41,735 nucleotides of DNA from Mollicutes bacterium (lineage in GTDB: Bacteria; Bacillota_I; Bacilli_A; Izemoplasmatales; Izemoplasmataceae): assembly GCA_003568315.1 (NCBI GenBank), contig PWYL01000031.1, positions 1 to 41,735 of the forward strand. Reading direction: 5' to 3'. The notes under the pieces were generated by a model. The model was not told where the DNA came from. It saw only the letters and a program-made list of their open reading frames with translations, and made no database searches. This document shows positions 4,975 to 33,890 of the stretch, piece by piece. Every line of letters begins with the position of its first letter. Within the stretch, counting starts at the first letter, position 1. The position numbers and the translations under genes were made by a program.

Positions 4975-7452
4975 ATGCGGATATTTTGCAAGTATATCAT
5001 GAGAACGATGCTCGAGAAGAAAGCCAGACTGGTTTTGCTCCTTTTTGCGATAACACTCTCCACAGCCTTGTTTTTCGCCAGTCTCGGTCTCACCGACCTG
5101 ATTGTCGAAAGTGTGAGCCGCCCCATCGTCGAGAAGACGGAGGAACACCATATACGCATTGTTTCCGAAACGGGTGATTCCTTTTTCAGCGCAGACGATA
5201 TCGTTACAGCGGGCATAAAGTCCCACACCTCCTCAATCGTGCTTCCGGGTGTGATACAGAACCTGGACCACGAGATTGTCACCCTTCATGGCAGGACATG
5301 GGATTCGCTCTCTCCTTACACGTTCGTCGATGCTCCATCGGAGGATTCTTTTTCCGGTTCTTCAGCCGTCATCTCCGTACGGGTCGCCGAACTTTTTTCT
5401 TTGGAGAGAGGGGATGCTCTCGAGGTCCTTTTTGCGGGAGAGACCCACACATTGCACGTATCGGGTATCGTCGGGAACCAAGGTGTTTTCTACGGAGACA
5501 CGAATCGTAGCTTCGACGTTATCGTTCCCTATGGATATCTTGCAGAGACCTTGGAGGTCGAAGGATTGTACAACCACGTTACGGCCGTGATGGGGGAGGA
5601 TTCCCTTGATGCTTCCTTGGTCCTTTTCAACGAGATGAATCCGGATTTTCGGGGTATACCGCTCTATAATGAAGATTTTGTGGCTTCCATGGTCAATCAA
5701 CAGGTGAACGCGCTGTATTTCATGTTGGTTTTCATCATTCTTGTCAGCGGTGTCATCATCCATGGCGCTTTCAAATTGATTGTCACAGAAAGAAGGCGTG
5801 TCATCGGCACTTTCTTGAGCCAAGGAGCCACCAAGGGCACAATCCGCGGCATCCTTCTAGCGGAAGGTTTCGTCTATGGATTGGTGGGCGGCGCTTTCGG
5901 CATCCTTCTCGGCATCGGCATGCTTTATGTCCTGCATGATTACTCTTCTCCCCTCCGCGCGTACGGTGTCGTTGAACCTTTCCGATTTGCTGGCGCCCTT
6001 GTCGTCTATGCCGGCCTTTTCGCTATCGGCTTCGCGATGGTGTCGGCGCTCAGTCCTGTCATCCGTAGCGTTCGGCGCGAAGTGAAGAACATCATTCTCG
6101 ATATTCGCGAACCGCAGAGGAAGAAGGGGGCTTTGCTTTTTGTGCTCGGCACTCTCTTGCTATGTGGTAGCGCACTCTTGAGTTATGTCTCTCCGCCGAC
6201 GGCAATCGATTACGCGCCATTCGTCATGCTTTCGGCTATCATCGGTGTTCTCATGGTCTATCCCCGCGTCTTGGATTTCCTCATCTCACTCTTCTTCCGG
6301 CGCATCCTTCCCGTTTTCCGTTTGACGGCACTTTCCATACAGAATGTCCGTACATCGGCCGCTCTCCGCGGCAATATCACCGTGATCGTCATCGCCGCAA
6401 TATCCGTTGTGACGGTCGTCTCCCTCAGTTCCTCGATGGTGAGGATTGTCACCGACGCCTTCGATTCCATGCGCTTCGACATCTATGTCCACAACATCCA
6501 AACGAACGACCCCGGGAGCAGAAGAACAATCATGGACACTTTGCGAGAGGATGAGCGCATCGTGGGAGAAAGCCTCATGGAGACCACCTCCGTGGAAGGG
6601 AACGTGGCCGGCGAGTTCGCCATCGCCGAAGGTATCGAACCCGGGCGGTTCGATGATTTCACCGACTACATCGATTTCACCCATGGTGACGGCAACCTGC
6701 TCGATGCGCTCGAAAATGCCGAAGAAAGGAACACGGTCATCGCGACCACCACGGCCGCACGACTCGGCCTCGATGTGGGCTCCGCGGTTGATCTCGATTT
6801 CAACGGTATCGTGCAGACCTACACGGTGACGGGCATCGTCGATGTCCGGCTATGGAACACAAGGGACATGTTCTTTGTGAATCTTGCGAATTTGCGAGAA
6901 GACCACCACATCGACCACGGCAGGATCTATTTCGACACTCACGAGAATCCGGAGACGCTTGTCGACGAACTGCAGGATTACTTCCGCAATTTCGGCGGCA
7001 TCGTGCAGACGCGGGACGAAGCGAGAGACATCAACATCGAGAACAACCGTCAGCTGTCGCGGATGTTGAGCGCCTTCTCCCTTTTCGCCATCGTCATCGG
7101 CTCCTTCGGCGCCCTAAACAACATGTTCATAAGCTGTCTGCAAAGGAAAAGGGATTTCGCCGTGTTGGAATCACTCGGAACCCATCAAGGCCAGAGGAAC
7201 CGGATATTGCTCACGGAATCGCTTTTCTGCGTGGTGTTCGCACTCGTGGTCGTCGTTCTCTACGGCAATTTCCACGCCCGTCTCATCGGGCAGGTCGCGA
7301 GTTTCCTCCTCCTGCCCATGGACATCACGTTCTCTTTGGTGGAAATCTTCCCCTTCCTTCTGGCTTCCATCGCCATCTACACGCTTGCGACACTGCCATT
7401 GTTGGTCAAGACCCGGAATCTCAATGTCATCGAGGAGATGAAAATCGAATGA
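4975..7452 (+). CDS. ABC transporter permease, FtsX/MacB type
   Basis: An 825-residue permease. One membrane helix near residues 18-40 is followed by an extracytoplasmic domain of about 200 residues. A first FtsX domain covers roughly 240-370 (three helices), further helices lie near 385-485, a second extracytoplasmic domain covers about 490-690, and a second FtsX domain about 695-815. This two-FtsX layout is typical of exporters of the lipoprotein or peptide-resistance type (LolCDE/BceAB-like superfamily). GGGAGG five nt before ATG 4975 sets the start. The ATPase gene overlaps its end by four nt, so the pair forms the transporter. The substrate is unknown. Codon use looks slightly more AT-rich than the flanking genes. 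Confidence 0.9.
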   Translation: MRIFCKYIMRTMLEKKARLVLLLFAITLSTALFFASLGLTDLIVESVSRPIVEKTEEHHIRIVSETGDSFFSADDIVTAGIKSHTSSIVLPGVIQNLDHEIVTLHGRTWDSLSPYTFVDAPSEDSFSGSSAVISVRVAELFSLERGDALEVLFAGETHTLHVSGIVGNQGVFYGDTNRSFDVIVPYGYLAETLEVEGLYNHVTAVMGEDSLDASLVLFNEMNPDFRGIPLYNEDFVASMVNQQVNALYFMLVFIILVSGVIIHGAFKLIVTERRRVIGTFLSQGATKGTIRGILLAEGFVYGLVGGAFGILLGIGMLYVLHDYSSPLRAYGVVEPFRFAGALVVYAGLFAIGFAMVSALSPVIRSVRREVKNIILDIREPQRKKGALLFVLGTLLLCGSALLSYVSPPTAIDYAPFVMLSAIIGVLMVYPRVLDFLISLFFRRILPVFRLTALSIQNVRTSAALRGNITVIVIAAISVVTVVSLSSSMVRIVTDAFDSMRFDIYVHNIQTNDPGSRRTIMDTLREDERIVGESLMETTSVEGNVAGEFAIAEGIEPGRFDDFTDYIDFTHGDGNLLDALENAEERNTVIATTTAARLGLDVGSAVDLDFNGIVQTYTVTGIVDVRLWNTRDMFFVNLANLREDHHIDHGRIYFDTHENPETLVDELQDYFRNFGGIVQTRDEARDINIENNRQLSRMLSAFSLFAIVIGSFGALNNMFISCLQRKRDFAVLESLGTHQGQRNRILLTESLFCVVFALVVVVLYGNFHARLIGQVASFLLLPMDITFSLVEIFPFLLASIAIYTLATLPLLVKTRNLNVIEEMKIE

Positions 7453-8248: not shown

Positions 8249-8626
8249 ATGAATGCACAATTCAAACGGGGAATCATAGATCTCTGTGTGTTTTCTGTGT
8301 TGGTCGAAGAAGACATGTATGGCTACAAGATCATTCGCGAACTGGCAGAATACATCGATGTGAACGAGAACACCATCTATCCGATTCTGCGTCGTCTGAC
8401 GAAGGAAGGCTACTTCGAGACCTATCTCGAAGAGTCCGACGCCGGCGCGCCACGCAAGTACTATCGTGTCACAAAAAAAGGAATTGACAGGTATATGCGG
8501 TTGCGCGACGAGTGGGACGCTTTCATCGGCGGCGTGTATCGGATCATCAATCGAGGAGGAAAAAAGAGTGAAGAAATATTTAGAAGACTTGGAAAACGAG
8601 CTGAAGAAGAAACTGAAAGCGAATGA
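8249..8626 (+). CDS. PadR family transcriptional regulator
   Basis: A 125-residue protein with the PadR winged helix: the N-terminal core (LCVFSVLVEEDMYGYKI), recognition helix ENTIYPILRRLTKEG and wing YYRVTKKG. PadR-like proteins are ligand-responsive repressors, often of transporter or envelope-stress genes. AAAAGGAGG eight nt before ATG 8249 is a strong SD. The 3' end overlaps the next gene by 59 nt, which implies tight translational coupling. PadR genes next to HAAS-DUF4097 proteins are a recurrent Gram-positive pairing. A terminator separates it from the upstream ABC transporter, but that exporter remains a plausible target. Confidence 0.93.
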   Translation: MNAQFKRGIIDLCVFSVLVEEDMYGYKIIRELAEYIDVNENTIYPILRRLTKEGYFETYLEESDAGAPRKYYRVTKKGIDRYMRLRDEWDAFIGGVYRIINRGGKKSEEIFRRLGKRAEEETESE

Positions 8627-9548
8627 GATCGAGGAGATTCTCGCCGATCACGAAGAGATGATCCGAACGGCTCTCGAAGAAGGTCTTGACGAAGACAAGA
8701 TCGTCGAACAATTCGGCGAACCGAAGAAGGTGGCCGAAGCCCTCGGTGAGGTCACAGATGACAAAACCGACACTGAAGATGCGCAAGAAGAAGATGCGAA
8801 GAAAAAGACATTCAAGACGCTTGCGACCTTTGCGGCGGGTGAAGAGCCCGTGGAATTCCGCATTGAACTCGCCAACGACGATGTGACCTACAAAAAGGCT
8901 GAAGGGGACAGTCTTCGCGTTTCCGTCCGCGGGAACGCCGACACCGAAGAATACACTTTGGCATTCAAAGACAACAAATTTGTCCTCTCCTCGCCCAAGA
9001 AAAGTGGTTTCGACTTCCTTTCGTTCGGGAAAAACCATGTGGATTTCCTCATCGAGATTCCCGCAGGACTGGCAATCAAAAATTTCTTTCACAAAAGCCT
9101 GAACGGCGATATCATGATGGAAACGATCAAGACGAAAGCCTTCGAGTTGAGCACTGTCAACGGCGATGTGCGTTTACGAGACACTTCCGTAGGCGAGGCG
9201 AGGTTGCACACCGTCAACGGCGATTTCGATATCAAAGACCTGCAAGCCGATTTCTTCAAAGTCTCGCTTGTGAGCGGCGACATGAGAATCAAAGGCGCTT
9301 GTGTCAAAGAGGACTTCCATGTCTCGACCGTCAGCGGCGATGTGCGGATCGAGGATGCCGAAAGCGCTGGCTGCATCCTGCATTCGGTTTCCGGCGACAT
9401 TGAAGGGAAGGAGTTCTATCCCGACAGGGTCGCTTTGAAGTCCGTGAGCGGAGACATCCGTTTGCAGAACAAAGAGGACCGCGACATCCGGGTCGAAGCG
9501 AAGAAGACGGTGAGCGGCCGGATCAAGATACGGCAGGAAGAAGGATGA
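8568..9548 (+). CDS. HAAS domain protein with DUF4097 beta-repeat domain
   Basis: A 326-residue protein. Residues 1-75 match the helical HAAS/DUF1700 domain (LEDLENELKKK, then DHEEMIRTALEEG and EQFGEPKKVAEALG). From about residue 90 on it is a DUF4097-like beta domain with at least seven turns marked by NGD or SGD (VNGDVR, VNGDFD, VSGDMR, VSGDVR, VSGDIE, VSGDIR), spaced about 17-21 residues as in a beta-solenoid. It lacks a transmembrane helix between the two domains, unlike many relatives. The GTG start at 8568 is chosen because GAGGAGG at 8553-8559 precedes it by eight nt; it lies inside padR. It probably works with PadR as a sensor, function unproven. Confidence 0.85.
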   Translation: MKKYLEDLENELKKKLKANEIEEILADHEEMIRTALEEGLDEDKIVEQFGEPKKVAEALGEVTDDKTDTEDAQEEDAKKKTFKTLATFAAGEEPVEFRIELANDDVTYKKAEGDSLRVSVRGNADTEEYTLAFKDNKFVLSSPKKSGFDFLSFGKNHVDFLIEIPAGLAIKNFFHKSLNGDIMMETIKTKAFELSTVNGDVRLRDTSVGEARLHTVNGDFDIKDLQADFFKVSLVSGDMRIKGACVKEDFHVSTVSGDVRIEDAESAGCILHSVSGDIEGKEFYPDRVALKSVSGDIRLQNKEDRDIRVEAKKTVSGRIKIRQEEG

Positions 9549-9553
9549 AAAAC

Positions 9554-9584
9554 AAAAAGCGAAGCTTTCCGGCTTCGCTTTTTC
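9554..9584 (+). terminator. Terminator after the HAAS-DUF4097 gene
   Basis: AAAAAGCGAAGC / GCTTCGCTTTTT, a perfect 12-bp hairpin with a TTTCCG loop. The A/T flanks make it usable in both directions. Confidence 0.9.
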
Positions 9585-9650: not shown

Positions 9651-10715
9651 ATGGGGTTGTTGGTGCATGATTTTCCGTTGGAGTTCCACAAAGTGGCCGA
9701 AGAAGTCTTCTTTCGGCATCTTGGGGCGGACCCGCTCATCAAGGACGCCTACGACGATTACCGGAAACGGAAGCTCTACGAGGATACCTTGCACAATCTG
9801 AGTTTCTTGCATACCGCATCCGAACTCGAAGATGACAAAATCTTCCGAGACTATGCGGTGTGGCTTTATGAATTGTTGGCGAGACTGATGCGAGACATCC
9901 CGGAAGAAAAACTGAAAGAACAGATCATCAAACACTACGGTTTCTTGTCGGAGGCGATCGGCAAGGTTCTGGGTGAAGAAAGGCGTGCACATTACAAGCC
10001 GTTTCTGGAAGCGGCCGTCCGTTCGACGAAGAAGGCGACCCTCGCCGAAAAAAAGAGCGCTTTCTCCCGGGGGAAACATGGCGACATCCGCAAGAAGTAT
10101 CTGGATCTCCTCCTCGCCGCCGACACCGAAGGCGCGCTTTCCTATGTTAGATTCCTTGCGGCCAAGGAACTTCCGCTGGAAGACGTCTATGTGGACATCT
10201 TCCAAGAGGTGATGAAAGAGATCGGTGAACGCTGGCACAAAAACGAGATTTCCGTCGCAGAAGAACACTACATGACTTCTCTCACCCAGAGGGCGCTCGC
10301 GGAGTTCTATCCGCACATCTTCGACACCGAAAGGAACGAGAAGAAGATCGTCGTCTGCACGGTAGGGAGTGAACTGCACGAATTCGGCGCCCGCATGATC
10401 TCGGATTTGTTGGAACACATGGGTTTTGATTCCGTCTATCTCGGTGCCGCGGTCCCGAAAGCTTCAGTGCTTCGAAGCGTCGAGAAAAACAAACCTTTCT
10501 TCTTGGCGCTTTCTGTGACCATGCCCCAATATCTGAAGGAATGTTTGGAAATCGTGGAAGCCGTCAAAGAAAAACACCCCGACGTGATGGTCGTCGTGGG
10601 CGGGAGAGCCTTCACCACCACCGACGAGATCTGGAGGAGATGGCCCGTCGATGCCTATGAGCCCGACGGCAAAGGTCTCATCCGCTGGGTGAAGAGAACG
10701 GAGGGGGGAACCTGA
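9651..10715 (+). CDS. CarH-like cobalamin-binding photosensor without DNA-binding domain
   Basis: A 354-residue protein. Residues 1-140 are helical and unlike the MerR head of CarH. Residues 145-225 form the B12-capping helical bundle and 230-350 a cobalamin-binding Rossmann domain. Compared with Thermus CarH (known residues Trp131, His132, Val138, Glu141, His142, His177), this protein has Trp195, His196, Val202, Glu205, His206 in the motif WHKNEISVAEEH and the axial His243 in ELHEFG. So the cap and both histidines used in the dark and light states are kept. Predicted role: sensing light (or adenosylcobalamin level) and passing it to a protein partner. The diguanylate cyclase gene overlaps its stop codon (TGATG), which makes that enzyme the obvious partner. 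A corrinoid methyl-carrier protein is less likely given the long N-terminal domain and this context. Confidence 0.85.
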   Translation: MGLLVHDFPLEFHKVAEEVFFRHLGADPLIKDAYDDYRKRKLYEDTLHNLSFLHTASELEDDKIFRDYAVWLYELLARLMRDIPEEKLKEQIIKHYGFLSEAIGKVLGEERRAHYKPFLEAAVRSTKKATLAEKKSAFSRGKHGDIRKKYLDLLLAADTEGALSYVRFLAAKELPLEDVYVDIFQEVMKEIGERWHKNEISVAEEHYMTSLTQRALAEFYPHIFDTERNEKKIVVCTVGSELHEFGARMISDLLEHMGFDSVYLGAAVPKASVLRSVEKNKPFFLALSVTMPQYLKECLEIVEAVKEKHPDVMVVVGGRAFTTTDEIWRRWPVDAYEPDGKGLIRWVKRTEGGT

Positions 10716-11683
10716 TGCGGCATGCACTGTTCGAGATCGATGTGAACGGCATCATCCATGACACCCTCTTCAACAGCTTGGAAGTGAATCATGACGTCCC
10801 TTCCGTATTCAGCCTGTTTTCCGGCGCGGAAGACAAGCTCCTTGCAGCGTTGAGAAAGGCGAGAAACTCGCACACTGTGCATGATTTTCACCTTTGTGAG
10901 ATGGAGGTCTCGGGATTGCTTTTTCCCATCGATGGGGGGCTCTATCTTTATGTGGCACCGCCCGAGGACGCATCACTCATGAAGGATGCGCTTCATGATT
11001 TCCTTCGCGCTTTGTCCCCAAAAAAGGGGACTCATCCCACCGACAGCTGGCGGTTCTATGAGCAAATCCAGAAACTGAACAACGAACTCATGAACAAAAG
11101 CCGGAAAATCGAGAAACTGAACCGGCATTTGAACCGCTTGAACGAGATGTTGAACCGCCGGCTCATCACGGATCCCCTCACGGGTCTTTTGAGCCGCTAC
11201 CAATATCGCGACGAAATCATGGCCGCCATCGAGAAGGACCCTAAAAAAGGCGGAGTGTTTTGCTATATCGACATCGATGATTTCAAAGCGGTGAACGACA
11301 CGCACGGTCATCGTATCGGCGACCTCTATCTACAGGCATTCGCCACGCGATTGCGTTCCCTCCCGTTGGAGAACGCTATCGCCATGCGCATCGCCGGCGA
11401 CGAGTTCGGTCTTTTCCTCCACCCCGTCGATAAGGAAAAGAAGACGTTTTCCCAAAAGCTTTGGACAATGATTCGCGAAAACGTCGTCCGCCCCGTGGAG
11501 ATTGAAGGGAAGAGCATCCCCCTGCGGCTGAGCATGGGCATTGTCCGCTACCCCGAAGACACAAACGAAATCCACCGGCTCATCGACTATGCCGACTATG
11601 CGATGTATGTGGCCAAAAGGTCCGGCAAGAGCAAATACGCACTTTTCGACAAGAAGAAGTACGAAAGAGCGAAGTCCTCATGA
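10715..11683 (+). CDS. Diguanylate cyclase with PAS-like and coiled-coil input
   Basis: A 322-residue protein that makes cyclic-di-GMP from two GTP. Residues 1-100 form a small PAS-like alpha/beta domain, 112-150 a charged helical coiled coil (KLNNELMNKSRKIEKLNRHL), and 151-315 a GGDEF domain. The domain has DPLTGLLSR, the metal-site Asp186 in YIDIDDFK, and the signature RIAGDEF (AGDEF at 227-231), a variant that is normally active. The RxxD inhibitory site expected just upstream of the signature is absent, so product feedback is unlikely. There is no membrane segment. Its ATG overlaps the upstream B12-sensor stop by one base, so both are made together and the sensor probably controls this enzyme. 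Confidence 0.93.
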   Translation: MRHALFEIDVNGIIHDTLFNSLEVNHDVPSVFSLFSGAEDKLLAALRKARNSHTVHDFHLCEMEVSGLLFPIDGGLYLYVAPPEDASLMKDALHDFLRALSPKKGTHPTDSWRFYEQIQKLNNELMNKSRKIEKLNRHLNRLNEMLNRRLITDPLTGLLSRYQYRDEIMAAIEKDPKKGGVFCYIDIDDFKAVNDTHGHRIGDLYLQAFATRLRSLPLENAIAMRIAGDEFGLFLHPVDKEKKTFSQKLWTMIRENVVRPVEIEGKSIPLRLSMGIVRYPEDTNEIHRLIDYADYAMYVAKRSGKSKYALFDKKKYERAKSS

Positions 11684-11717
11684 AAAACACTCCCGCCCGG
11701 GAGTGTTTTTCATGAGG
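11676..11717. terminator. Bidirectional terminator between convergent genes
   Basis: A perfect 19-bp hairpin (CCTCATGAAAAACACTCCC and its complement, loop GCCC). The A/T-rich arms supply a T tract in both directions. The stop codon of the cyclase lies inside the left arm. On the other strand it ends the DUF554 transcript. Confidence 0.88.
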
Positions 11718-19452: not shown

Positions 19453-19527
19453 GGTCCCGTAGCCAAGTGGCTAAGGCAATGGACTGCAACTCCGTGATCA
19501 CCGGTTCGAATCCGGTCGGGACCTCCA
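19453..19527 (+). tRNA. tRNA-Cys (GCA)
   Basis: Acceptor GGTCCCG / CGGGACC, anticodon stem ATGGA/TCCGT around CTGCAAC with anticodon GCA, T loop GTTCGAATC, CCA encoded. Confidence 0.97.
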
Positions 19528-19538
19528 AATGGAACCCC

Positions 19539-19562
19539 CAAAAGCCCTCCGGGGCTTTTTTT
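19539..19562 (+). terminator. Terminator after tRNA-Cys
   Basis: AAAAGCCC / GGGGCTTTT stem with a short loop and a T run. Confidence 0.88.
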
Positions 19563-19573
19563 GTGGAAGGAAA

Positions 19574-19602
19574 AGAAAAAAGGAAGCCACGACGGGCTTC
19601 CT
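19574..19602 (-). terminator. Terminator after the 5'-nucleotidase
   Basis: Minus-strand stem AGGAAGCC / GGCTTCCT followed by TTTTTT. It faces the tRNA-Cys terminator, so the two convergent units are insulated separately. Confidence 0.85.
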
Positions 19603-19622
19603 CGGGTTATGGCGACAGATGG

Positions 19623-21116
19623 TCAGTCCTTTCCTTCGATCTCGTCTATGGGCCAATCCTCTTGGCCGGCGTAGGGGGTGATCAGGATGTCGTTCGTGAC
19701 ACAGAATTCACCATAGACTTCCGCTTGGAGCTTGAGCTCGAGTTCGATGAGTTCCCGGATATAGAGGGGAAGCTCTGTGATGTTCTCGCCGATGTCGTCG
19801 AACCGGTTGTCTTCATAATAGAAGACGTAGTCGTTCGTCGCGATCGTGTAGTATTCGTCATCGTCGAAAGCGGTCGTCTCCCCATAGCTGATGTTGTTGC
19901 TGGTGTCGATGAAATGGTTCAAGTCGCTGCCGAGAAGATCCGCCGCCACGACCGCGTTGTCGAAAGGCCAGACTTCATAGAGCGTGGACAGGGTGATGGG
20001 CTCGTCACCCGGAAACGGGTGTCTGGTTCCGCCGTAGTTTTGACTGCCGACATCGGCAGAAGAAGCGATTCGCATGAGTTCGGCCGCCCAGTCGGAGAGC
20101 TCACCGCGGTCGAAACCGCGAGCGGGCGTGATGATGGGATCGTTGAATATCTCGTCGGTCTCGAGGACATATTCGTCGATTATCGCCTGGATGTCGGGAT
20201 GGGCCTCCCAGAACAAGGTATCGTCATTGCGGGAGAGGTTCCGCATGGAAGTGTCGACAATGTCGTTCCCATCGAGTTCGAAGCGGATGTGACCGACATA
20301 TTCTCCGTAAGCCCCGGATTGGATGGCGGGGACATCGCCGTCATAACGTGTGTATTCCCAGTGTCTGTGGCCGTTGAAGATGGCATCCACGCGGGCGTCT
20401 TCGTCAAAATGCCGGACATCGTCGTTCACGTTGCCGATATCATGGGTGAGAAGGAGCACGATGTCGACATCCTCGTCCTGTCTCAGATAGCGGGCGTAGT
20501 CCTCGACGATGGGTCCGGGATTCTTGAATTCATAGTTTTCGACCATCCTTCTCGCGATCGAGGATTCGAGGCCGTAACCGATGGTGCCGATGATACCGAT
20601 CCGGAGATCACCGCGTTCGAAAATCACATAGGGGTCGATGTTCTCGGGCATATCGTCGGTTCCCTTGTAATGCACATTGGCGCCAAGGAGAGGGAATTCG
20701 GCGATGCCTCCGTCGGGGTCGAAATAGTCGGTGACGACTTCCAACCCCCAGTCGAACTCGTGGTTGCCGATGGCCAAAGCGTCGAAATATGTGGCGTTCA
20801 TCAGTTCGATGACGGATTTCCCGTGATAGTAGTTGGAGAGCGCGCTCCCTTGCAGCATGTCGCCGCCCGCGAGCACGAAAGTCCCTTCCGGGTTCTCCCG
20901 TCTTCTTTCGATGAGAAAATTGCCGATGCGAGCCATGCCCATGGCGTTACCACTTGGAAGGATGGCACCGTGGAGATCGTTCAGATAATAGATGTCGATG
21001 ACCTCGGGTGTCACTTCGGGGTCCGGTTCCAAGGACCCTTCCGAGGGAGAGGTGCCGCAAGCGACAAGCGTCAAAGCGGCGATGATGAAGAGCGTGAAGG
21101 TCAGAAAGTGTTTCAT
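19623..21116 (-). CDS. 5'-nucleotidase (UshA/CD73 family) lipoprotein
   Basis: A 497-residue exported enzyme. Residues 1-20 form a lipoprotein signal with lipobox LVAC, Cys20 being the lipid-anchored residue. A calcineurin-like phosphoesterase domain (about 40-290) has Asp47 and His49 (NDLHG), Asp86 (GGDMLQG), Asn118-His119 (GNHEF), THD and NGHRH. The C-terminal 5'-nucleotidase domain (about 310-490) has the substrate-site element YEVWPFDN. It should hydrolyse extracellular nucleotides or UDP-sugars to scavenge nucleosides and phosphate at the outer face of the membrane. The start ATG 21116 has AAAGGA ten nt upstream; codons upstream overlap the promoter. Confidence 0.93.
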   Translation of the reverse strand: MKHFLTFTLFIIAALTLVACGTSPSEGSLEPDPEVTPEVIDIYYLNDLHGAILPSGNAMGMARIGNFLIERRRENPEGTFVLAGGDMLQGSALSNYYHGKSVIELMNATYFDALAIGNHEFDWGLEVVTDYFDPDGGIAEFPLLGANVHYKGTDDMPENIDPYVIFERGDLRIGIIGTIGYGLESSIARRMVENYEFKNPGPIVEDYARYLRQDEDVDIVLLLTHDIGNVNDDVRHFDEDARVDAIFNGHRHWEYTRYDGDVPAIQSGAYGEYVGHIRFELDGNDIVDTSMRNLSRNDDTLFWEAHPDIQAIIDEYVLETDEIFNDPIITPARGFDRGELSDWAAELMRIASSADVGSQNYGGTRHPFPGDEPITLSTLYEVWPFDNAVVAADLLGSDLNHFIDTSNNISYGETTAFDDDEYYTIATNDYVFYYEDNRFDDIGENITELPLYIRELIELELKLQAEVYGEFCVTNDILITPYAGQEDWPIDEIEGKD

Positions 21117-21149
21117 GGGGAAATCATCCTTTGTGAGAAATCTAAAAGC

Positions 21150-21160
21150 ATTATAACACA
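21150..21160 (-). promoter_or_regulatory. Extended -10 promoter of the 5'-nucleotidase gene
   Basis: Minus strand TGTGT followed by TATAAT; no -35 match at 17 bp. Confidence 0.68.
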
Positions 21161-21242
21161 GGCAGGTCCATATGATGAAAACGACGATGCATCTTTCGCC
21201 AAGACACAGTTTCTTTCCACAAGATGCGTTGTGGGGGGCGTA

Positions 21243-21253
21243 TATGTTATAAT
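21243..21253 (+). promoter_or_regulatory. Extended -10 promoter of the hydrolase/XRE unit
   Basis: TATGT followed by TATAAT, 63 nt before the start codon at 21317. It is divergent from the 5'-nucleotidase promoter about 90 bp away. Confidence 0.68.
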
Positions 21254-21316
21254 TATGATACAAACACGGTCTTTGTGCGGAAGAAACCATGAGTATCCGC
21301 TGCCACGGAGGCTCTC

Positions 21317-22240
21317 ATGACCTTTCAAAGACGTTTCATCGATGCGGTTGATGGTAGAAGGCTGAAACTGCACGTGATGCGCGCAAAAGACGACAGGAAA
21401 GGGGTCGTCCATATTTTGCATGGTATGGGCGAACATGCCGAAAGATATGAAGAGTTCGCAGCGTATCTTGCCCAAAACAATTACACCGTCTATGCCCATG
21501 ACCACCGGTTGCACGGCGGGAGTCGTGAAGAAGGGGAAGAGGTCGGAATCTTTCGCAAAAAAGACACATTCGACAGCATCATCGAAGATGTCGGCACCGT
21601 CCAAGCATACATATCCGAGAAGGAGGGTGTCACGGACATCACCACCCTCGGCCACAGCATGGGCTCTCTCATCCTGCGGCGCCATCTCCAGACGGACGGC
21701 CGTTTCACGAAAAGAGCGATCGTCATGGGGACTCCCCCCGCATATTCGCGGGTCATGGTCACAACAAGCCGCCTCCTGGCTTTTCTCACAGGACTTTTCC
21801 TTTCGACGCAAAAGCGCAACCGGTTGATGCATGCCCTCATGAAGCGTAATACCGCCCACCGCGTAAAGGAGAGGGAACGGGAGAACGATTGGCTCACCCA
21901 TGATGAAGAGATCGTCCGTCGTTATGAAGAAGACCCGCATTGCGGTTTCGCCTACAACAAATTCTTCTATCGCGAATTCTTCGGACTCTTCGCAAAGGTG
22001 AATCACCCCCGAGCCATCGGCCAGACCCCCGCCATCCCCATGCTTTTCATCTCCGGCGAAAAGGATCCCCTTTCCCGAGGCATGCGTTCGGTAGAGCGGC
22101 TTTTCTCCCGATACGACAAGCTCATCGACGGTTTTCAAGGAACCATCCATACAGTGACGAAAGCCCGCCACGAAGTTTTGAACGAAACCGACAGGTCGAA
22201 GACCTTTACGCGTATACTCGCATGGATCAAGGAGAATTGA
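21317..22240 (+). CDS. Alpha/beta hydrolase, monoacylglycerol lipase-like
   Basis: A 307-residue cytoplasmic serine hydrolase. Oxyanion/N-terminal motif HGMGEHAERY (35-44), nucleophile elbow GHSMGS with Ser114, acid Asp250 (SGEKDPLS) and His285 (KARHEVLNE) form the expected catalytic triad of the Hydrolase_4/monoglyceride lipase family. The cap region around 150-220 is rich in Arg and aromatic residues. CGGAGG six nt before ATG 21317. Likely substrates are lysophospholipids or monoacylglycerols; not proven. The XRE-TPR gene starts 28 nt downstream with its own SD, so both probably share a transcript. Confidence 0.92.
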   Translation: MTFQRRFIDAVDGRRLKLHVMRAKDDRKGVVHILHGMGEHAERYEEFAAYLAQNNYTVYAHDHRLHGGSREEGEEVGIFRKKDTFDSIIEDVGTVQAYISEKEGVTDITTLGHSMGSLILRRHLQTDGRFTKRAIVMGTPPAYSRVMVTTSRLLAFLTGLFLSTQKRNRLMHALMKRNTAHRVKERERENDWLTHDEEIVRRYEEDPHCGFAYNKFFYREFFGLFAKVNHPRAIGQTPAIPMLFISGEKDPLSRGMRSVERLFSRYDKLIDGFQGTIHTVTKARHEVLNETDRSKTFTRILAWIKEN

Positions 22241-22268: not shown

Positions 22269-23540
22269 ATGACATCGCTTCCCTATTCACGAGACAATCT
22301 GAAGATTCTGGGACGCCTTTTCCGCAATTTTCGTGAGTGCAAGGGGTATTCCGCCCGCGGGGTGGCCCGGAGCGCCAGACTCTCCCACACCGTCGTCAGC
22401 GACATCGAGAACTGCAAAATCCATCCGAATCAGGATACATTGAAGGAACTCTACCGGACCGTGGGTGTCTCCATGTTTTTCGGCGCGGAGGAAATAAGCT
22501 CTTTGAAGCACCTCCTCGCCGCTTTCAACAACGCGGTCTATTACACCCATCCGGACGATGTCGACATGTATTATGAAGCCTTGAAAAAACGGGCCAAGAG
22601 GCTTTTGCACTCCCCCTTGCGCGTGGATTTCTTGCTGGCCAAGGAGACATATCGGAGTTTCCGTCTGCAGAAGCGTCGCCACGGGATACTCGACGAACTC
22701 GAAGAAGTCTATGAGTATCTCTCTTCAGAACAAAAACAGATGTACAACCTGATTTTGGGCATAAAATATTATCATGCCGCCGAATACGATGTGGCTCTCA
22801 CATATCTGAAAAAGAACATGGAGATTCCCGAACCGCAGAATTTCTATGCTGTGACCATCTCCTTCCTCGCGCGAGTGTACGATTTCCTCTTCAAAGACCA
22901 CAGAAGCCTGAAATACGCTTTGGAGGCCGCCAAACTACACACCGCCCTGAACAACACCTACCGGAAGATGGAAATCGAGGTTGTGGTCGTCAAGAAACAC
23001 ATCGAATTGGGGAACTATGAGGAGGCGGAGAACACCATCCGCTATCTCAAACAGTCCCTGAACCGCACCTTGCGCTTCCGGGAAGCGTTCCAGCGGGTGA
23101 TCGCCCGCATGGAGGCCTATCTCGCTTTCGCCAAGGGCGATAATGAGCAAGCGCTAGCACATTTCGAGACCGCGAAAGAGGATGCCCCGCGGTTTTGGTT
23201 CTATCAAGCGTATCTCAACCACGAGATCGGCAACGCCGACAAGGCCCGGACCTGCCTGGACCAAATCGAAAAACATCCGCCGGGGAAGGTGCGGGATTTC
23301 TTCTTCGCCGCGGGGCGACTCTTCTTGGCTCATATCGGCGAGGATATCCCCGATACGGATCTCGAGAATGCGGTCCGGACCATCTACGAAAACATGGATG
23401 TCATCCCGAATGCGCCCTTGTACTATATGATCAACGAGATGCTCATCGCCCATCATGAACGATGCGGTGATTACAAGGCAGCCCTCGAAGTGGCGAAACG
23501 GCATCTTTCCTTCTATAAACAACGTGATTTTTTGCGCTGA
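22269..23540 (+). CDS. XRE-TPR regulator, paralogue 1
   Basis: A 423-residue protein. Residues about 13-70 form an XRE-type helix-turn-helix (RNFRECKGYSARGVARSARL, then SHTVVSDIENCK as the recognition part). The remaining 350 residues are helical with TPR-like repeats (AEYDVALTYLKK, NYEEAENTIRYLKQ, DNEQALAHFETA, GDYKAALEVAKR). The domain order is that of RRNPP regulators (Rgg, PlcR, PrgX), which bind secreted peptides, but this is longer than the usual 280-320. Two more proteins of the same length and layout are encoded at 28522 and 32616. CAAGGAGG precedes ATG 22269. The target and ligand are unknown; the downstream antiporter is one candidate. Confidence 0.85.
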   Translation: MTSLPYSRDNLKILGRLFRNFRECKGYSARGVARSARLSHTVVSDIENCKIHPNQDTLKELYRTVGVSMFFGAEEISSLKHLLAAFNNAVYYTHPDDVDMYYEALKKRAKRLLHSPLRVDFLLAKETYRSFRLQKRRHGILDELEEVYEYLSSEQKQMYNLILGIKYYHAAEYDVALTYLKKNMEIPEPQNFYAVTISFLARVYDFLFKDHRSLKYALEAAKLHTALNNTYRKMEIEVVVVKKHIELGNYEEAENTIRYLKQSLNRTLRFREAFQRVIARMEAYLAFAKGDNEQALAHFETAKEDAPRFWFYQAYLNHEIGNADKARTCLDQIEKHPPGKVRDFFFAAGRLFLAHIGEDIPDTDLENAVRTIYENMDVIPNAPLYYMINEMLIAHHERCGDYKAALEVAKRHLSFYKQRDFLR

Positions 23541-28521: not shown

Positions 28522-29796
28522 ATGCAGGATCTCCTGACTGTCTTCAATCTGTCCGAGAACAAAGAGGATTTCGGCTATGCGGTGCGCATTCTACGCACCC
28601 GCCGGAACGAATCGTTGCGCGATCTCGCCCGCAAAGCGGGCTTTTCGCATGCACACGTGAGAAAGATCGAGACCGGCTCGACGGCCATCGGCCGGGATGT
28701 CTTTACGCGTCTATCCCGCGTGCTCGATCTCGACCTCACCTTCGACGAAGAAGAAAAAGCCACGTTCAAGGACCTTGAGGAACGACTGGAATACGCCTTT
28801 TTGTATTTGGATCACGATGCGACCGAACGTCTGTACAAACAATTGCAAGACCCCCGCGACATCCATGGTCATTCGCTTTGGATGACCGATTATATGGTCG
28901 TCATGCTCGGATGCGCCTATCTCGGGCGGACCGGCTCACCGGAGGATGCGGATTCCTTGGTCGGGGAACTCACATCCGTCGCAGCCCTTTTCCCTCCCGA
29001 AAAAAAACAGAAGTTCCATGTCTATCGGGGCGCCCACTATTATCACTGGAATCATTTTGATGAGGCCATTGAGGATTATCGCCAAGCGATCGATCTGGCG
29101 GTGAACCGTTCGCACACGGCGCTCGCGCATCTTTTGTTGGCCCGCACCTATAACGAGACCGGCCATCTGACGGAATCATCGCATCATATCGAAAAAGCCC
29201 GCGACATGTTCGAGAAGGACCAGAACGTGCTCCGCGTCTCAGAATGTGATGCCGTGGAGATATCGAACATGATCAAGGCCGGAATCCGTGTTGGTGTGGA
29301 GGAACGATTGGAGAAGATCGTCGCGACCGCGCACCGCTATGGATATACTGCCCTGGAGAGCTTCTTGGAGACCGCCTGGGCCCTCTATCACTATTTCGGG
29401 AAGGATTATGACAAAGCCCTTGAAAGACTGGACAAAGCCAAAGATGATACGACCCGTGGCCATTATTTCCGCGCCCTCCTCTTATTGAAGCAGAAGGGAC
29501 CGCAAGCGGCATTGTCCCATATCGAGAGTCTGCCAAGAGAAAGCGACAAGACCGGGCGTTTCGACATGTACGAGAAAGGAATCTCCTTCATGAGGGTATA
29601 TGCGGAAAAAGGACTTGCCGAATCAAAAAAGGAGCTCGAAATGTTCTTCGAGACCGCTTGGGAACAGATGGCCCCGGTCACGGCGGATGTCGCCTATTCC
29701 TACTATATTCGGCTTTTGAAAGAGAAACGCCGCTACAAAGAGGCTTATGAAGCCACGAAGAAGATGATCACCATGACCAAGCGTTCATTGGCTTGA
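28522..29796 (+). CDS. XRE-TPR regulator, paralogue 2
   Basis: A 424-residue protein. The XRE helix-turn-helix spans about 17-72 (AVRILRTRRNESLRDLARKA, recognition helix SHAHVRKIETGS). The rest is helical with TPR-like repeats (NHFDEAIEDYRQAIDLA, LTESSHHIEKARDMF, KDYDKALERLDKAKDD, RRYKEAYEATKKM). Same size and order as the proteins at 22269 and 32616, though their sequences have diverged. A small stem (ACCCC/GGGGT at 28500-28515) overlaps its SD GGGGTGG and might lower translation. It sits in the tdh-kbl operon, 28 nt after the duplicated membrane protein, and may regulate that operon. Confidence 0.83.
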   Translation: MQDLLTVFNLSENKEDFGYAVRILRTRRNESLRDLARKAGFSHAHVRKIETGSTAIGRDVFTRLSRVLDLDLTFDEEEKATFKDLEERLEYAFLYLDHDATERLYKQLQDPRDIHGHSLWMTDYMVVMLGCAYLGRTGSPEDADSLVGELTSVAALFPPEKKQKFHVYRGAHYYHWNHFDEAIEDYRQAIDLAVNRSHTALAHLLLARTYNETGHLTESSHHIEKARDMFEKDQNVLRVSECDAVEISNMIKAGIRVGVEERLEKIVATAHRYGYTALESFLETAWALYHYFGKDYDKALERLDKAKDDTTRGHYFRALLLLKQKGPQAALSHIESLPRESDKTGRFDMYEKGISFMRVYAEKGLAESKKELEMFFETAWEQMAPVTADVAYSYYIRLLKEKRRYKEAYEATKKMITMTKRSLA

Positions 29797-30193: not shown

Positions 30194-32056
30194 ATGAACA
30201 TGAATCGTTTCGAAGCTTTCTTTCTGAAACGTCTCGTCATGGCGGGAGCTCTGCTCCCCTTGGCATCAGTGCTCATCCTTTTTATCTTGTCCGGTGTTTT
30301 CGACACACTCGAGACCGCCTTTCTCCATTATGTCCTTCTCGTCCTGGCGACCTCTTCCCTCGGCATCTTCACATATTTTATCGCCACGAGACATCTGCGT
30401 CACACTCTGGCGCTCGCTTCGGTCATCGCCGATTCCAGTCATGACGGCATCGTGATCACGGACCGGAAGAACCGCATCGTCTATGTCAATCCGACGGTGG
30501 TCCGCGCGACGGGATACGGAAAAGAAGAGATCATCGGCGGGACACCCGGAGACTTCAAGTCGGGTATCCACGACGAGGAATACTATAAGCGGATGTGGCG
30601 TTCTATCCACGAACAAGGGTATTGGCGCGGAAAAATCTGGGACCGCCGGAAAAACGGCGACTTTCTTCCCAAGGACCTCACTATCCGTACCGTGAAAGAC
30701 AAAAGAGGAAACATCCGCTACCATCTCGGCATCCATCGCGATCTGACCGAGATCGAGGCGTTGAAAAAAGACAAGGAAAAGCTCCTCCGGACCCATCCCG
30801 AAACCGGTCTCTCCAACGAGTTGGCTTTGCGGGAAAGGATGGAGGAGCTCTTCGACAAATCCATTCCCTTCCACCTCCTTCTCACCAAGGTCAACAACAA
30901 GTCCGCTCTTATGGCGAGCGCGGATGAGACATCCTATCTGAGCGTGTTCAGGCCTCTTTCCCAGAAACTTAAAGAGGGGGACCCTCCCGCCTTCTATGCG
31001 CAAATCGACAGCGAATTCTTCGCTCTTCTCGTCTACAGGGGTGCAAAAGCGGAAGAAGCTTTCGAATCTGTTCTCCGCGACCATAACGAGAGATTGAAGG
31101 ATACGGCCGGACGCCTCGATGTTCCCTTGGATTGCACTTCGGCACTTGCCGCCCATCCGGAACATGGTGATGCCACCGACGATCTCCTCACCGCCGCCTT
31201 CGTCACACTGGAAGCCGCCATCGAAGCGGGCGAAGAGGCCATGTCATTCACACCCTCCCTCCAAAAGGCGCTGGAAGAGACCCAACGCCTCGCGGATACA
31301 CTCAAGACCGCTGTGGAGAACGAAGAACTCACTGTGGCCTATCAACCCATCGTCAATCTGGAATACGGCGGGATTGCCGGATTCGAAGCACTGGCCCGGC
31401 TTGCGGGACATTCTCCGGCAGCGTTCATCCCTCTCGCCGAAAGACGCGGTCTGATCGGTGCCATCGGTGAGCTCGTCCGCAAACAAGCGCTTGCGGCGAA
31501 GAAGGTCTTCGACGGACTCGTCGGTGAAAATTGCCTGCTCTTTTTGAACATCAGCGTGCAAGAGTTCACGGATGATGCGTTCCTTCCCGAAATCACGGCT
31601 CAATGCCGAGAGGCCGGCGTGCATCCCGAAGACATCATCTTAGAGATCACTGAGTCCACATACATCTCGAACTATGCCGCTTTCAACGACCATCTGCGCG
31701 CATTCAAAAAAGAGGGTTTCCGCATCGCCTTGGATGATTTCGGTACGGGATATTCCTCGCTCTCCCATCTGCACGAGATGCCCATCGACATGTTGAAGAT
31801 CGACCGTTCATTCATCGCCGACCTTCCTCGTGCGAGAAGCCTCGGTGTCATCGAGGGGATTCTCGCCCTCGGGAAGGCCTATGGACTTGGCATCATCGCC
31901 GAAGGGATCGAACGAGCCGAGCAAGCGGAAGTCATCAAGAGACTCGGTGGCACGTTCGGTCAGGGATTCCATTTCTCAAAGCCTCTCAGCGAAGAAGTGA
32001 TGACAAGGGTCTTGCAAAAGAAAAACGGCCCTTTCAACGGCCGCTTCGAGGTTTGA
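30194..32056 (+). CDS. PAS-GGDEF(degenerate)-EAL c-di-GMP phosphodiesterase
   Basis: A 620-residue membrane protein. Two membrane helices (about 14-34 and 44-64), a PAS domain (75-185), a GGDEF-like domain (195-355) and an EAL domain (368-605). The GGDEF signature is IDSEF (271-275) and the metal-binding DxD region reads TKVNNKS, so cyclase activity is almost surely lost. The EAL domain keeps EAL (398-400), Asn452, Glu484, DDFGTGYSS (514-522), Lys535, Glu570 and Gln590, so it should cleave c-di-GMP to pGpG. The PAS domain suggests control by redox or ligand. It is the last gene of the tdh-kbl operon, and its end overlaps the convergent next gene by 23 bp. Confidence 0.93.
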   Translation: MNMNRFEAFFLKRLVMAGALLPLASVLILFILSGVFDTLETAFLHYVLLVLATSSLGIFTYFIATRHLRHTLALASVIADSSHDGIVITDRKNRIVYVNPTVVRATGYGKEEIIGGTPGDFKSGIHDEEYYKRMWRSIHEQGYWRGKIWDRRKNGDFLPKDLTIRTVKDKRGNIRYHLGIHRDLTEIEALKKDKEKLLRTHPETGLSNELALRERMEELFDKSIPFHLLLTKVNNKSALMASADETSYLSVFRPLSQKLKEGDPPAFYAQIDSEFFALLVYRGAKAEEAFESVLRDHNERLKDTAGRLDVPLDCTSALAAHPEHGDATDDLLTAAFVTLEAAIEAGEEAMSFTPSLQKALEETQRLADTLKTAVENEELTVAYQPIVNLEYGGIAGFEALARLAGHSPAAFIPLAERRGLIGAIGELVRKQALAAKKVFDGLVGENCLLFLNISVQEFTDDAFLPEITAQCREAGVHPEDIILEITESTYISNYAAFNDHLRAFKKEGFRIALDDFGTGYSSLSHLHEMPIDMLKIDRSFIADLPRARSLGVIEGILALGKAYGLGIIAEGIERAEQAEVIKRLGGTFGQGFHFSKPLSEEVMTRVLQKKNGPFNGRFEV

Positions 32057-32615: not shown

Positions 32616-33890
32616 ATGGAGGAAAGCGGAACAAAACAACTTCGCTTGGGCCTTTTCATCCGTCAATGTCGCAAGGAAGAAGGCCTTTCTCTCACCGAAC
32701 TCGCCCGCCGGGCGGATATTTCGCGTGGGTGTCTCCAAAGACTGGAAAAAGAAGGGGTCCCACTCGAAAAAGCGGCTCTCGGCCGTCTCAAGGAGACTCT
32801 CGGAATCCCCTTCCATGACGACTATGTTTTGTTGTCGACATTCAAGGAACAATTCGACAGTCTCTACCATAACATCCTCTATCGGGAATATTTCGAGGCC
32901 GAAAGCCAATACGACCATCTGCTCAGAAACAGAGAACGATATGTGAAAAGCGACTGTTTCGTCGATTTTCATCTGATCATGTTCATCGCGACCTACCGTC
33001 TGAAACGCTCGCAACAACAAACGGAACCATTCTATCAAACAGCCAAGATTCTTTCTCCGGCCATGGACGAATGGCAAAAGGGACTTTTCAATGTCGAAGA
33101 GGCCATATATCTCTATCGCACATCTCGCGGAGAAAAAAGCATGGATCAGCTGAAAGAATGCCTACGGACCTTGGACGACCCCCATCATCTCGCCAACGCG
33201 CACATCACCATAGGGACCATTTTCCATAACGACTACCGTCATTATCAAGAAGCCGTGGACCATTTCGAAAAGGCGCTCGAACTCTACGAGCGACACGCCA
33301 ATTTCCATCGGGCTTGTCGGACCAAACTCCTTTTGCAGATCATCCGCATCCACCAACACAACCCGCTCGAAGTCCAAAGCCTCCATGAGGATGTAACCAC
33401 TTTCGCCTCCCGGGTAGGGGCGCTCGAACTCTACTATTTCGCCCAACTCAACATGGCCCGTTTCCACCTGTTGGAGAAACGTCCCGAGAAAGCGCTCGAG
33501 ATTCTTTCTCGATTCCGGCTCGAAATCGCTTGGTATTACATCCTGAAGATTTATGCCTACCATCTTCTCGGCCGGACTGTTCTCGCACTGCAGACGATTG
33601 AAGAATACAAGAAGCGGCCGGTGAAGACATACAAGCCGGTGGAGCGGATGTTTTTCGGAATCATGGAGAAATTTTATGTGAAAGAGACGGACGATCACAC
33701 GCTCGAAAGGCTCAAGGATATCACGGACATCTGCCTCGAGAAAGGGGATTATTTGATGTTTGTGATCACGATGGAAATCTATACCGGCGCTCTCGAAGAA
33801 ACAAGGAAATACAAAGAGGCATATATCTATGCCGAGAAGATGCTGGATGTCCTCCGGCGTAGCAGAAAGAAAAGGAGGGAGACAATATGA
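32616..33890 (+). CDS. XRE-TPR regulator, paralogue 3
   Basis: A 424-residue protein of the same layout as those at 22269 and 28522. The XRE helix-turn-helix is at about 10-65 ([20 protein letters not shown], recognition helix [12 protein letters not shown]). A long TPR-like helical domain follows ([50 protein letters not shown]). GAGGAGG stands seven nt before ATG 32616. The gene overlaps yjbQ by four nt, so both proteins are made from one message. Its 5' region lies divergent from the GCTPC membrane protein, another possible target. Confidence 0.84.

Follow-up and report, generated by a model that had tools for sequence, protein, structure and literature searches.

A putative standalone photocobilin and its apparent dedicated partner cyclase, encoded by overlapping genes in a Mollicutes bacterium

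Two overlapping genes on the forward strand of a 41 735-nt stretch of DNA from a Mollicutes bacterium (contig PWYL01000031.1; the whole stretch is referred to here as the window) appear to specify the two halves of a split signalling system. The first, ORF1 (9651–10715; 354 aa), has the sequence characteristics of a standalone photocobilin-type sensor, in which a bilin-type globin is followed by a cobalamin-binding domain (CBD); the second, ORF2 (10715–11683; 322 aa), is a predicted diguanylate cyclase and apparently a dedicated partner of ORF1. The reading that we favour, and consider probable, is that ORF1 is a sensor of the adenosylcobalamin (AdoCbl)/bilin type, which would switch its partner cyclase by direct contact according to a light-set state of AdoCbl. 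A light- or AdoCbl-controlled c-di-GMP switch acting through protein contact was also the proposal of the initial annotation of this DNA, and it remains the best-supported interpretation, given the match of the CBD to those of photocobilins and CarH, the one-to-one pairing of the genes, and the precedent of photocobilins that act on cyclases both when fused to them and in trans.

Organization of the locus

The stop codon of ORF1 (TGA, 10713–10715) and the start codon of ORF2 (ATG, 10715–10717) form a TGATG overlap at 10713–10717, placing the start of the second gene inside the stop codon of the first, as had been noted in the initial annotation; this arrangement suggests that the two are translationally coupled. 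A purine-rich, Shine-Dalgarno-like ribosome site precedes each of them. The pair is bracketed by a hairpin with a 12-pair stem (9554–9583), lying between it and the upstream DUF4097 gene, and by a perfect 19-bp inverted repeat (11676–11717) that spans the stop codon of ORF2; the latter faces a convergent DUF554 gene and is likely to be a bidirectional terminator. The pair is therefore probably its own transcription unit, and a simple scan of the sequence upstream of it found no sigma-70-type promoter. On the far side of the hairpin, directly upstream of the pair, lie genes for a PadR regulator and a HAAS-DUF4097 protein (8249–9548), with an ABC/FtsX transporter adjoining.

The cobalamin-binding domain of ORF1

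Within ORF1, Pfam places B12-binding_2 at residues 147–217 (5.5e-14) and B12-binding at residues 232–326 (2e-19), and detects no MerR/HTH head; the absence of the MerR head rules out ORF1 as a simple relative of CarH. The CBD comprises a four-helix bundle (residues 143–225; 10077–10325), bearing the GxxW motif (W195) and E205-H206, and a Rossmann domain (10335–10712), bearing the lower-ligand H243 and the GxxxP motif (G265 and P269). In the AlphaFold (AF2) model (pLDDT 93.8), an all-helical head is joined to a CBD of the same two-part construction, which in Foldseek aligns to photocobilin CBDs at 1.9–2.4 Å, and also to dark-state CarH. By sequence, ORF1 is matched best in the PDB by three photocobilins (8J2Y, 8J2W and 8J2X), with corrinoid proteins and CarH ranking below them.

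All of the residues that had been singled out in the initial annotation for their part in CarH photochemistry (W195, H196, V202, E205, H206 and H243) are present in ORF1. Across 69 sensor homologues, W195, E205, H206 and H243 are invariant, as is G265; H196, the residue that would permit a light state with bis-His ligation as in CarH, is not shared by the whole family, the position being occupied by Gln in 33 and by His in 31 of these proteins. Set against the SignatureFinder signature for light-responsive CBDs (GxxW, EH, GxxH and GxxxP), ORF1 has GERW, EH and GAAVP, but SELH in place of GxxH, and a strict GxxH pattern would miss it. The E/DxH motif is nonetheless there, as E241-L-H243, and together with W195, E205 and H206 it gives the combination of W-(10)-EH plus E/DxH by which photocobilins are recognized. 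By analogy with its characterized relatives, ORF1 would be expected to bind AdoCbl and to undergo Co–C photolysis.

The N-terminal globin of ORF1

The head of ORF1 (residues 1–135; 9651–10055) had been described in the initial annotation as a helical domain in place of that of MerR, and so far this is correct; what was missed is that it is recognizable as a bilin-binding globin (BBD) of the phycobiliprotein/photocobilin type. When a profile of this domain alone was searched against the whole PDB, the bilin domains of SasPcob (1.3e-6) and AbPcob (6.5e-6) were the best matches, followed by a long run of allophycocyanin β chains (from 7.5e-6). Moreover, hhalign paired the domain with the SasPcob and AbPcob fragments at 97% probability and in the expected register, as compared with 0.3% for the unrelated partner profile, used as a control. 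In the AF2 model the domain is all-helical, with pLDDT mostly >85. The alignment of residues 40–89 of ORF1 with the bilin domain at the C-terminus of 8J2Y pointed to a reversed order of the domains, and this was confirmed by the N-terminal profile search.

Both of the known biliverdin contacts of SasPcob are kept in the alignment: D45 (9783–9785) corresponds to Asp270, equivalent to the Asp of the phycobiliprotein CxRD (CLRD) motif, and W71 (9861–9863) corresponds to Trp296, which contacts both ring D of the bilin and the corrin. No other of the 141 N-terminal columns is as well conserved: W71 is found in all 69 homologues and D45 in 62 of them. The cysteine through which phycobiliproteins attach their chromophore covalently is absent, its place being taken by Leu42; photocobilins too are without a linking cysteine (PMC10979010). 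Given the bilin-globin head and the conservation of D45 and W71, ORF1 is best described as a putative standalone photocobilin with its bilin domain first, rather than as a headless CarH. At four other loci (L066, at 6001–7133, L070, L076 and L102), the reading frame of the sensor is broken into two parts, reflecting either real decay or assembly errors.

The partner cyclase

The N-terminal domain of ORF2 (residues 1–81; 10715–10957) belongs to no Pfam family. Its AF2 model (pLDDT 89.5) has the order β-β-α-α-β-β-β, and a Foldseek search with it gave no significant match, although PAS domains were among the best PDB matches; having the right order of strands and helices but no significant fold match, it is termed here only 'PAS-like'. 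Taken alone, this domain gives weak cross-phylum matches beyond close relatives, and most of the signal is carried by the signalling helix that follows (residues 111–148; 11045–11158). The helix contains an LNNELxNxxR motif (residues 121–130; 11075–11104), in which N122 and R130 show no variation across 33 diverse partners. A PAS-like plus coiled-coil input had also been described for ORF2 in the initial annotation.

The GGDEF domain itself (residues 152–306, 1.5e-32 in Pfam; 11168–11632) has an intact AGDEF (residues 227–231; 11393–11407) and no RxxD I-site, as had also been reported in the initial annotation; LENA stands in the place of RxxD. The GGDEF-type active site and the metal/GTP residues are kept: in addition to AGDEF, D186, N194, D203 and K301 are present, and are invariant in 12 sequences. 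Among the GGDEF-containing partners, the motif reads AGDEF in 24, SGDEF in seven and GGDEF in one, and is degenerate in five; the RxxD site is absent from all 32 that could be scored. Ala or Ser at the first GGDEF position, together with the missing RxxD, forms a clade-wide signature of nearly all GGDEF partners (L035–L114). Cyclases with AGDEF can be active (PMC3974145). The diguanylate cyclase VCA0965 resembles ORF2 in its AGDEF active site but, unlike ORF2, has an RxxD site and an unrelated input (PMC3974145).

Linkage of sensor and partner

The sensor and partner are neighbours well beyond chance. In a survey of 90 genomes of the host's order, based on a sensor search and a partner-profile search, each of the 28 strong sensor matches has a partner 3–101 nt away; conversely, 28 of the 30 partner-profile matches adjoin a sensor, the two exceptions being an orphan cyclase (L146) and a coiled-coil-only match. 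None of the 26 weaker sensor matches has an adjoining partner: judged by length and match range, 25 of them look like ordinary corrinoid proteins (~220 aa), and the remaining one is part of a sensor cut off by the end of its contig. The host genome has 13 GGDEF domains (and four EAL proteins), so that the adjacency is not a by-product of GGDEF abundance. The initial annotation had raised two possibilities for the homologues, namely conserved linkage to GGDEF genes and a position beside corrinoid methyltransferases; it is a signalling partner that adjoins the sensor, in 28/28 loci of the order. On the strength of this neighbourhood, along with the CarH-type residues, the identification of ORF1 as a corrinoid methyltransferase protein was rejected. 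No natural fusion of sensor and partner was seen among the loci examined.

Exchange of outputs across phyla

A GGDEF partner, as described in the initial annotation, is indeed what is found at this locus, but the output varies across phyla, which had escaped notice. A cross-phylum set of 80 named genome loci was compared; several of these are MAG contigs and may carry an incorrect taxon in their titles. The gene after the sensor encodes a GGDEF protein in records of Mycoplasmatota, Clostridia, Fusobacteriota and Synergistota. In Blautia and relatives a GGDEF-EAL protein takes that place, and in Bacteroidota, Chloroflexota, Thermoplasmatota archaea and others a histidine kinase does so. The kinase partners were classified by Pfam, HATPase_c being present in 30 of the 32 non-GGDEF downstream proteins that were scanned. 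The helix profile matched (i-E <1e-3) in 63 of 75 downstream genes. On the sensor tree, output type changes four times, as compared with 25.6 times for shuffled labels, which indicates that the pairs are mostly inherited together, with an occasional exchange of output; for example, the GGDEF partner of L091 lies inside the kinase clade.

A broader proposal, to which we would give an even chance, is that globin-first standalone photocobilins are one half of a two-gene system that is widespread in bacteria and extends to some archaea, its hosts being mostly without heme oxygenase. A constant AdoCbl/bilin sensor would signal, by contact and not by phosphotransfer, to its dedicated PAS-like/LNNELxNxxR partner, the output of which (A/SGDEF cyclase, GGDEF-EAL protein or histidine kinase) would be exchangeable.

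Relationship to known systems

ORF1 resembles the photocobilins SasPcob and AbDPcob (8J2W, 8J2X and 8J2Y; PMC10979010) in having a CarH-type CBD with W-(10)-EH and E/DxH, a bilin globin that keeps the Trp contact and, as in SasPcob, the Asp contact, and a link to a cyclase (AbDPcob). In contrast to both, its domain order is reversed, with the globin first, and the hosts of sensors of this type are mostly without heme oxygenase; unlike AbDPcob, its cyclase is separately encoded, behind a front end composed of the PAS-like domain and the LNNELxNxxR helix. It has already been published that the AdoCbl domain of photocobilins may stand at either end of the protein, including the C-terminus (PMC10979010). 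With CarH of Thermus thermophilus, ORF1 shares the fold of the CBD and its W, H196, V, EH and H residues, but it is without the MerR DNA-binding head, and its output is predicted to be an enzyme partner, not DNA. The photoglobins of Schneider et al. 2022 (doi 10.1016/j.csbj.2021.12.022) reportedly couple a globin to a B12-binding domain in signalling proteins. The BBAG-2 globin and B12 protein pairs of Myxococcales (PMC10151467) associate the same two sensory domains, but these are encoded by two genes, a CBD and then a globin-like protein of 234–238 aa, whereas in ORF1 they are fused and paired with an output enzyme. Four Myxococcus loci in our set (L098, L103, L104 and L107) have a cobalamin protein of ~220 aa followed by a separate globin-like protein of 234–238 aa (LSYLADAL...HVRWY).

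The function of standalone photocobilins has been regarded as less clear, and it has been suggested that they may act by protein contact (PMC10979010). The family described here would supply them with natural cognate partners, with the LNNELxNxxR helix as a candidate interface, and with a set of exchangeable outputs; together these make the question testable with purified pairs, and may furnish split, swappable parts for light control. Within the literature that could be searched, which leaves the photoglobin text of Schneider et al. 2022 outside, what appears to be new is the dedicated trans partner with its conserved helix, along with the A/SGDEF signature, the swapping of outputs and the lack of heme oxygenase.

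Proposed mechanism and alternatives

In the mechanism that we propose, ORF1 would, in the dark, bind AdoCbl in the base-off/His-on form through H243. The adenosyl group would be held at a dimer interface by W195, E205 and H206, and the globin would cap the edge of the corrin, perhaps with a bilin at D45/W71. Cleavage of the Co–C bond by green light, or by red light where a bilin is present, would alter the assembly state of ORF1; this change would reach the co-translated ORF2 by direct contact, via the PAS-like domain and the LNNELxNxxR coiled coil of the latter. Dimer geometry usually controls cyclases and histidine kinases that lie just after such a helix. Since the helix sits immediately before the catalytic or kinase domain in these partners, the simplest model is one in which the change in ORF1 assembly shifts the register of the coiled coil; the two cyclase domains would then pair differently and c-di-GMP would change in consequence, acting at least through the three c-di-GMP-I riboswitches of the host genome.

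That ORF2 may be regulated by contact is suggested by the behaviour of characterized relatives: in AbDPcob, bound AdoCbl inhibits the fused cyclase in the dark and light activates it >10-fold, while a cyclase encoded apart from the sensor responds in trans, by contact, to isolated photocobilins (PMC10979010). Pairs of the ORF1/ORF2 type look like natural cases of this in-trans arrangement. When SasPcob lacked biliverdin, its effect on the cyclase was reversed (PMC10979010), and the sign of the ORF1 response is, therefore, not predictable.

The conservation of bilin contacts in organisms without known bilin synthesis is a puzzle. Canonical heme oxygenase (PF01126) is found in none of the 90 genomes of the order, and in only two of 50 sensor-bearing genomes. 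Anaerobic synthesis via HutW/ChuW was considered and rejected: there was no match over the cut-off in 29 genomes, and the sub-threshold matches are probably HemN/HemW relatives. Additionally, members of the sensor family are present in Lachnospiraceae and in isolates from stool, settings that light is unlikely to reach. With heme oxygenase mostly missing and some hosts belonging to gut-type families, it is from residues that we infer light sensing through AdoCbl.

It is conceivable, albeit rather unlikely, that the pair senses not light but the availability of AdoCbl (or its oxidation or damage), such that occupancy sets the state of ORF1 and of the cyclase, and the globin is a structural cap for the corrin. 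Many of the hosts are anaerobes, some of them from gut-type families, and most have no known bilin synthesis; moreover, the binding of AdoCbl alone lowers the cyclase activity of AbDPcob (PMC10979010). D45 is lost from the sensors of Blautia, Clostridium sp. 1001271st1, Anaerovorax and Lachnospiraceae L155, in which W195, E205, H206 and H243 are kept. Nevertheless, the W, EH and H of the CarH/photocobilin light signature are present in all 69 sensors, and the retention of D45 in 62 of them is hard to explain without a bilin-like ligand. Nor does the loss of D45 track habitat cleanly: it is lost in Blautia, L062, L063 and L155, but kept in L066 and in other Lachnospiraceae (L156–L158), and this mixed pattern does not provide the clean natural test that the gut members might have offered.

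We consider it improbable that the globin binds a linear tetrapyrrole, either acquired from the environment or produced by some O2-independent pathway, and that this bilin, rather than AdoCbl, is the main light absorber or regulated ligand. In favour of this, D45 and W71 are conserved despite the absence of heme oxygenase, and purified BBAG-2 globins, which are photoglobin relatives, bind biliverdin (PMC10151467), but a photocobilin with bilin only gave no photochemistry (PMC10979010). Least credible of all is the notion that ORF1 and ORF2 are merely co-expressed, without contact, and that ORF1 is an orphan corrinoid or methyl-transfer protein; its CBD is homologous to those of corrinoid proteins, but there is no methyltransferase neighbour, a signalling partner is present at every one of the 28 loci, the ordinary corrinoid proteins show no partner linkage, the CarH-type W, EH and H are invariant, and different signalling outputs have been swapped behind one helix.

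Genomic context

The host genome encodes an AdoCbl adenosyltransferase, and no PilZ receptor was found in it. Its three c-di-GMP-I riboswitches are located at L163 (1474–1548) and L164 (4923–4997 and 5014–5088), the latter two forming a tandem pair. They lie upstream of small, exported-looking proteins that resemble SipW-processed fibre proteins, and near genes for a SipW-like signal peptidase, a CBM_5_12 protein and an HD-domain phosphodiesterase. In the window, 19 kb from the sensor pair, there is a PAS-EAL protein (30194–32056), one of the four EAL proteins of the genome and a candidate opposing phosphodiesterase.

Elsewhere in the window, at 19453–21320, a tRNA (19453–19524) overlaps the start of a 617-aa ORF on the forward strand, in which Pfam finds no match, and a 555-aa ORF lies on the reverse strand. 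Finally, three proteins of 423–424 aa with an N-terminal XRE-type HTH are encoded within 12 kb (22269–23540, 28522–29796 and 32616–33890); two of them have detectable TPR, and the trio, which may be paralogues, resemble peptide-sensing regulators of the Rgg/PlcR type.
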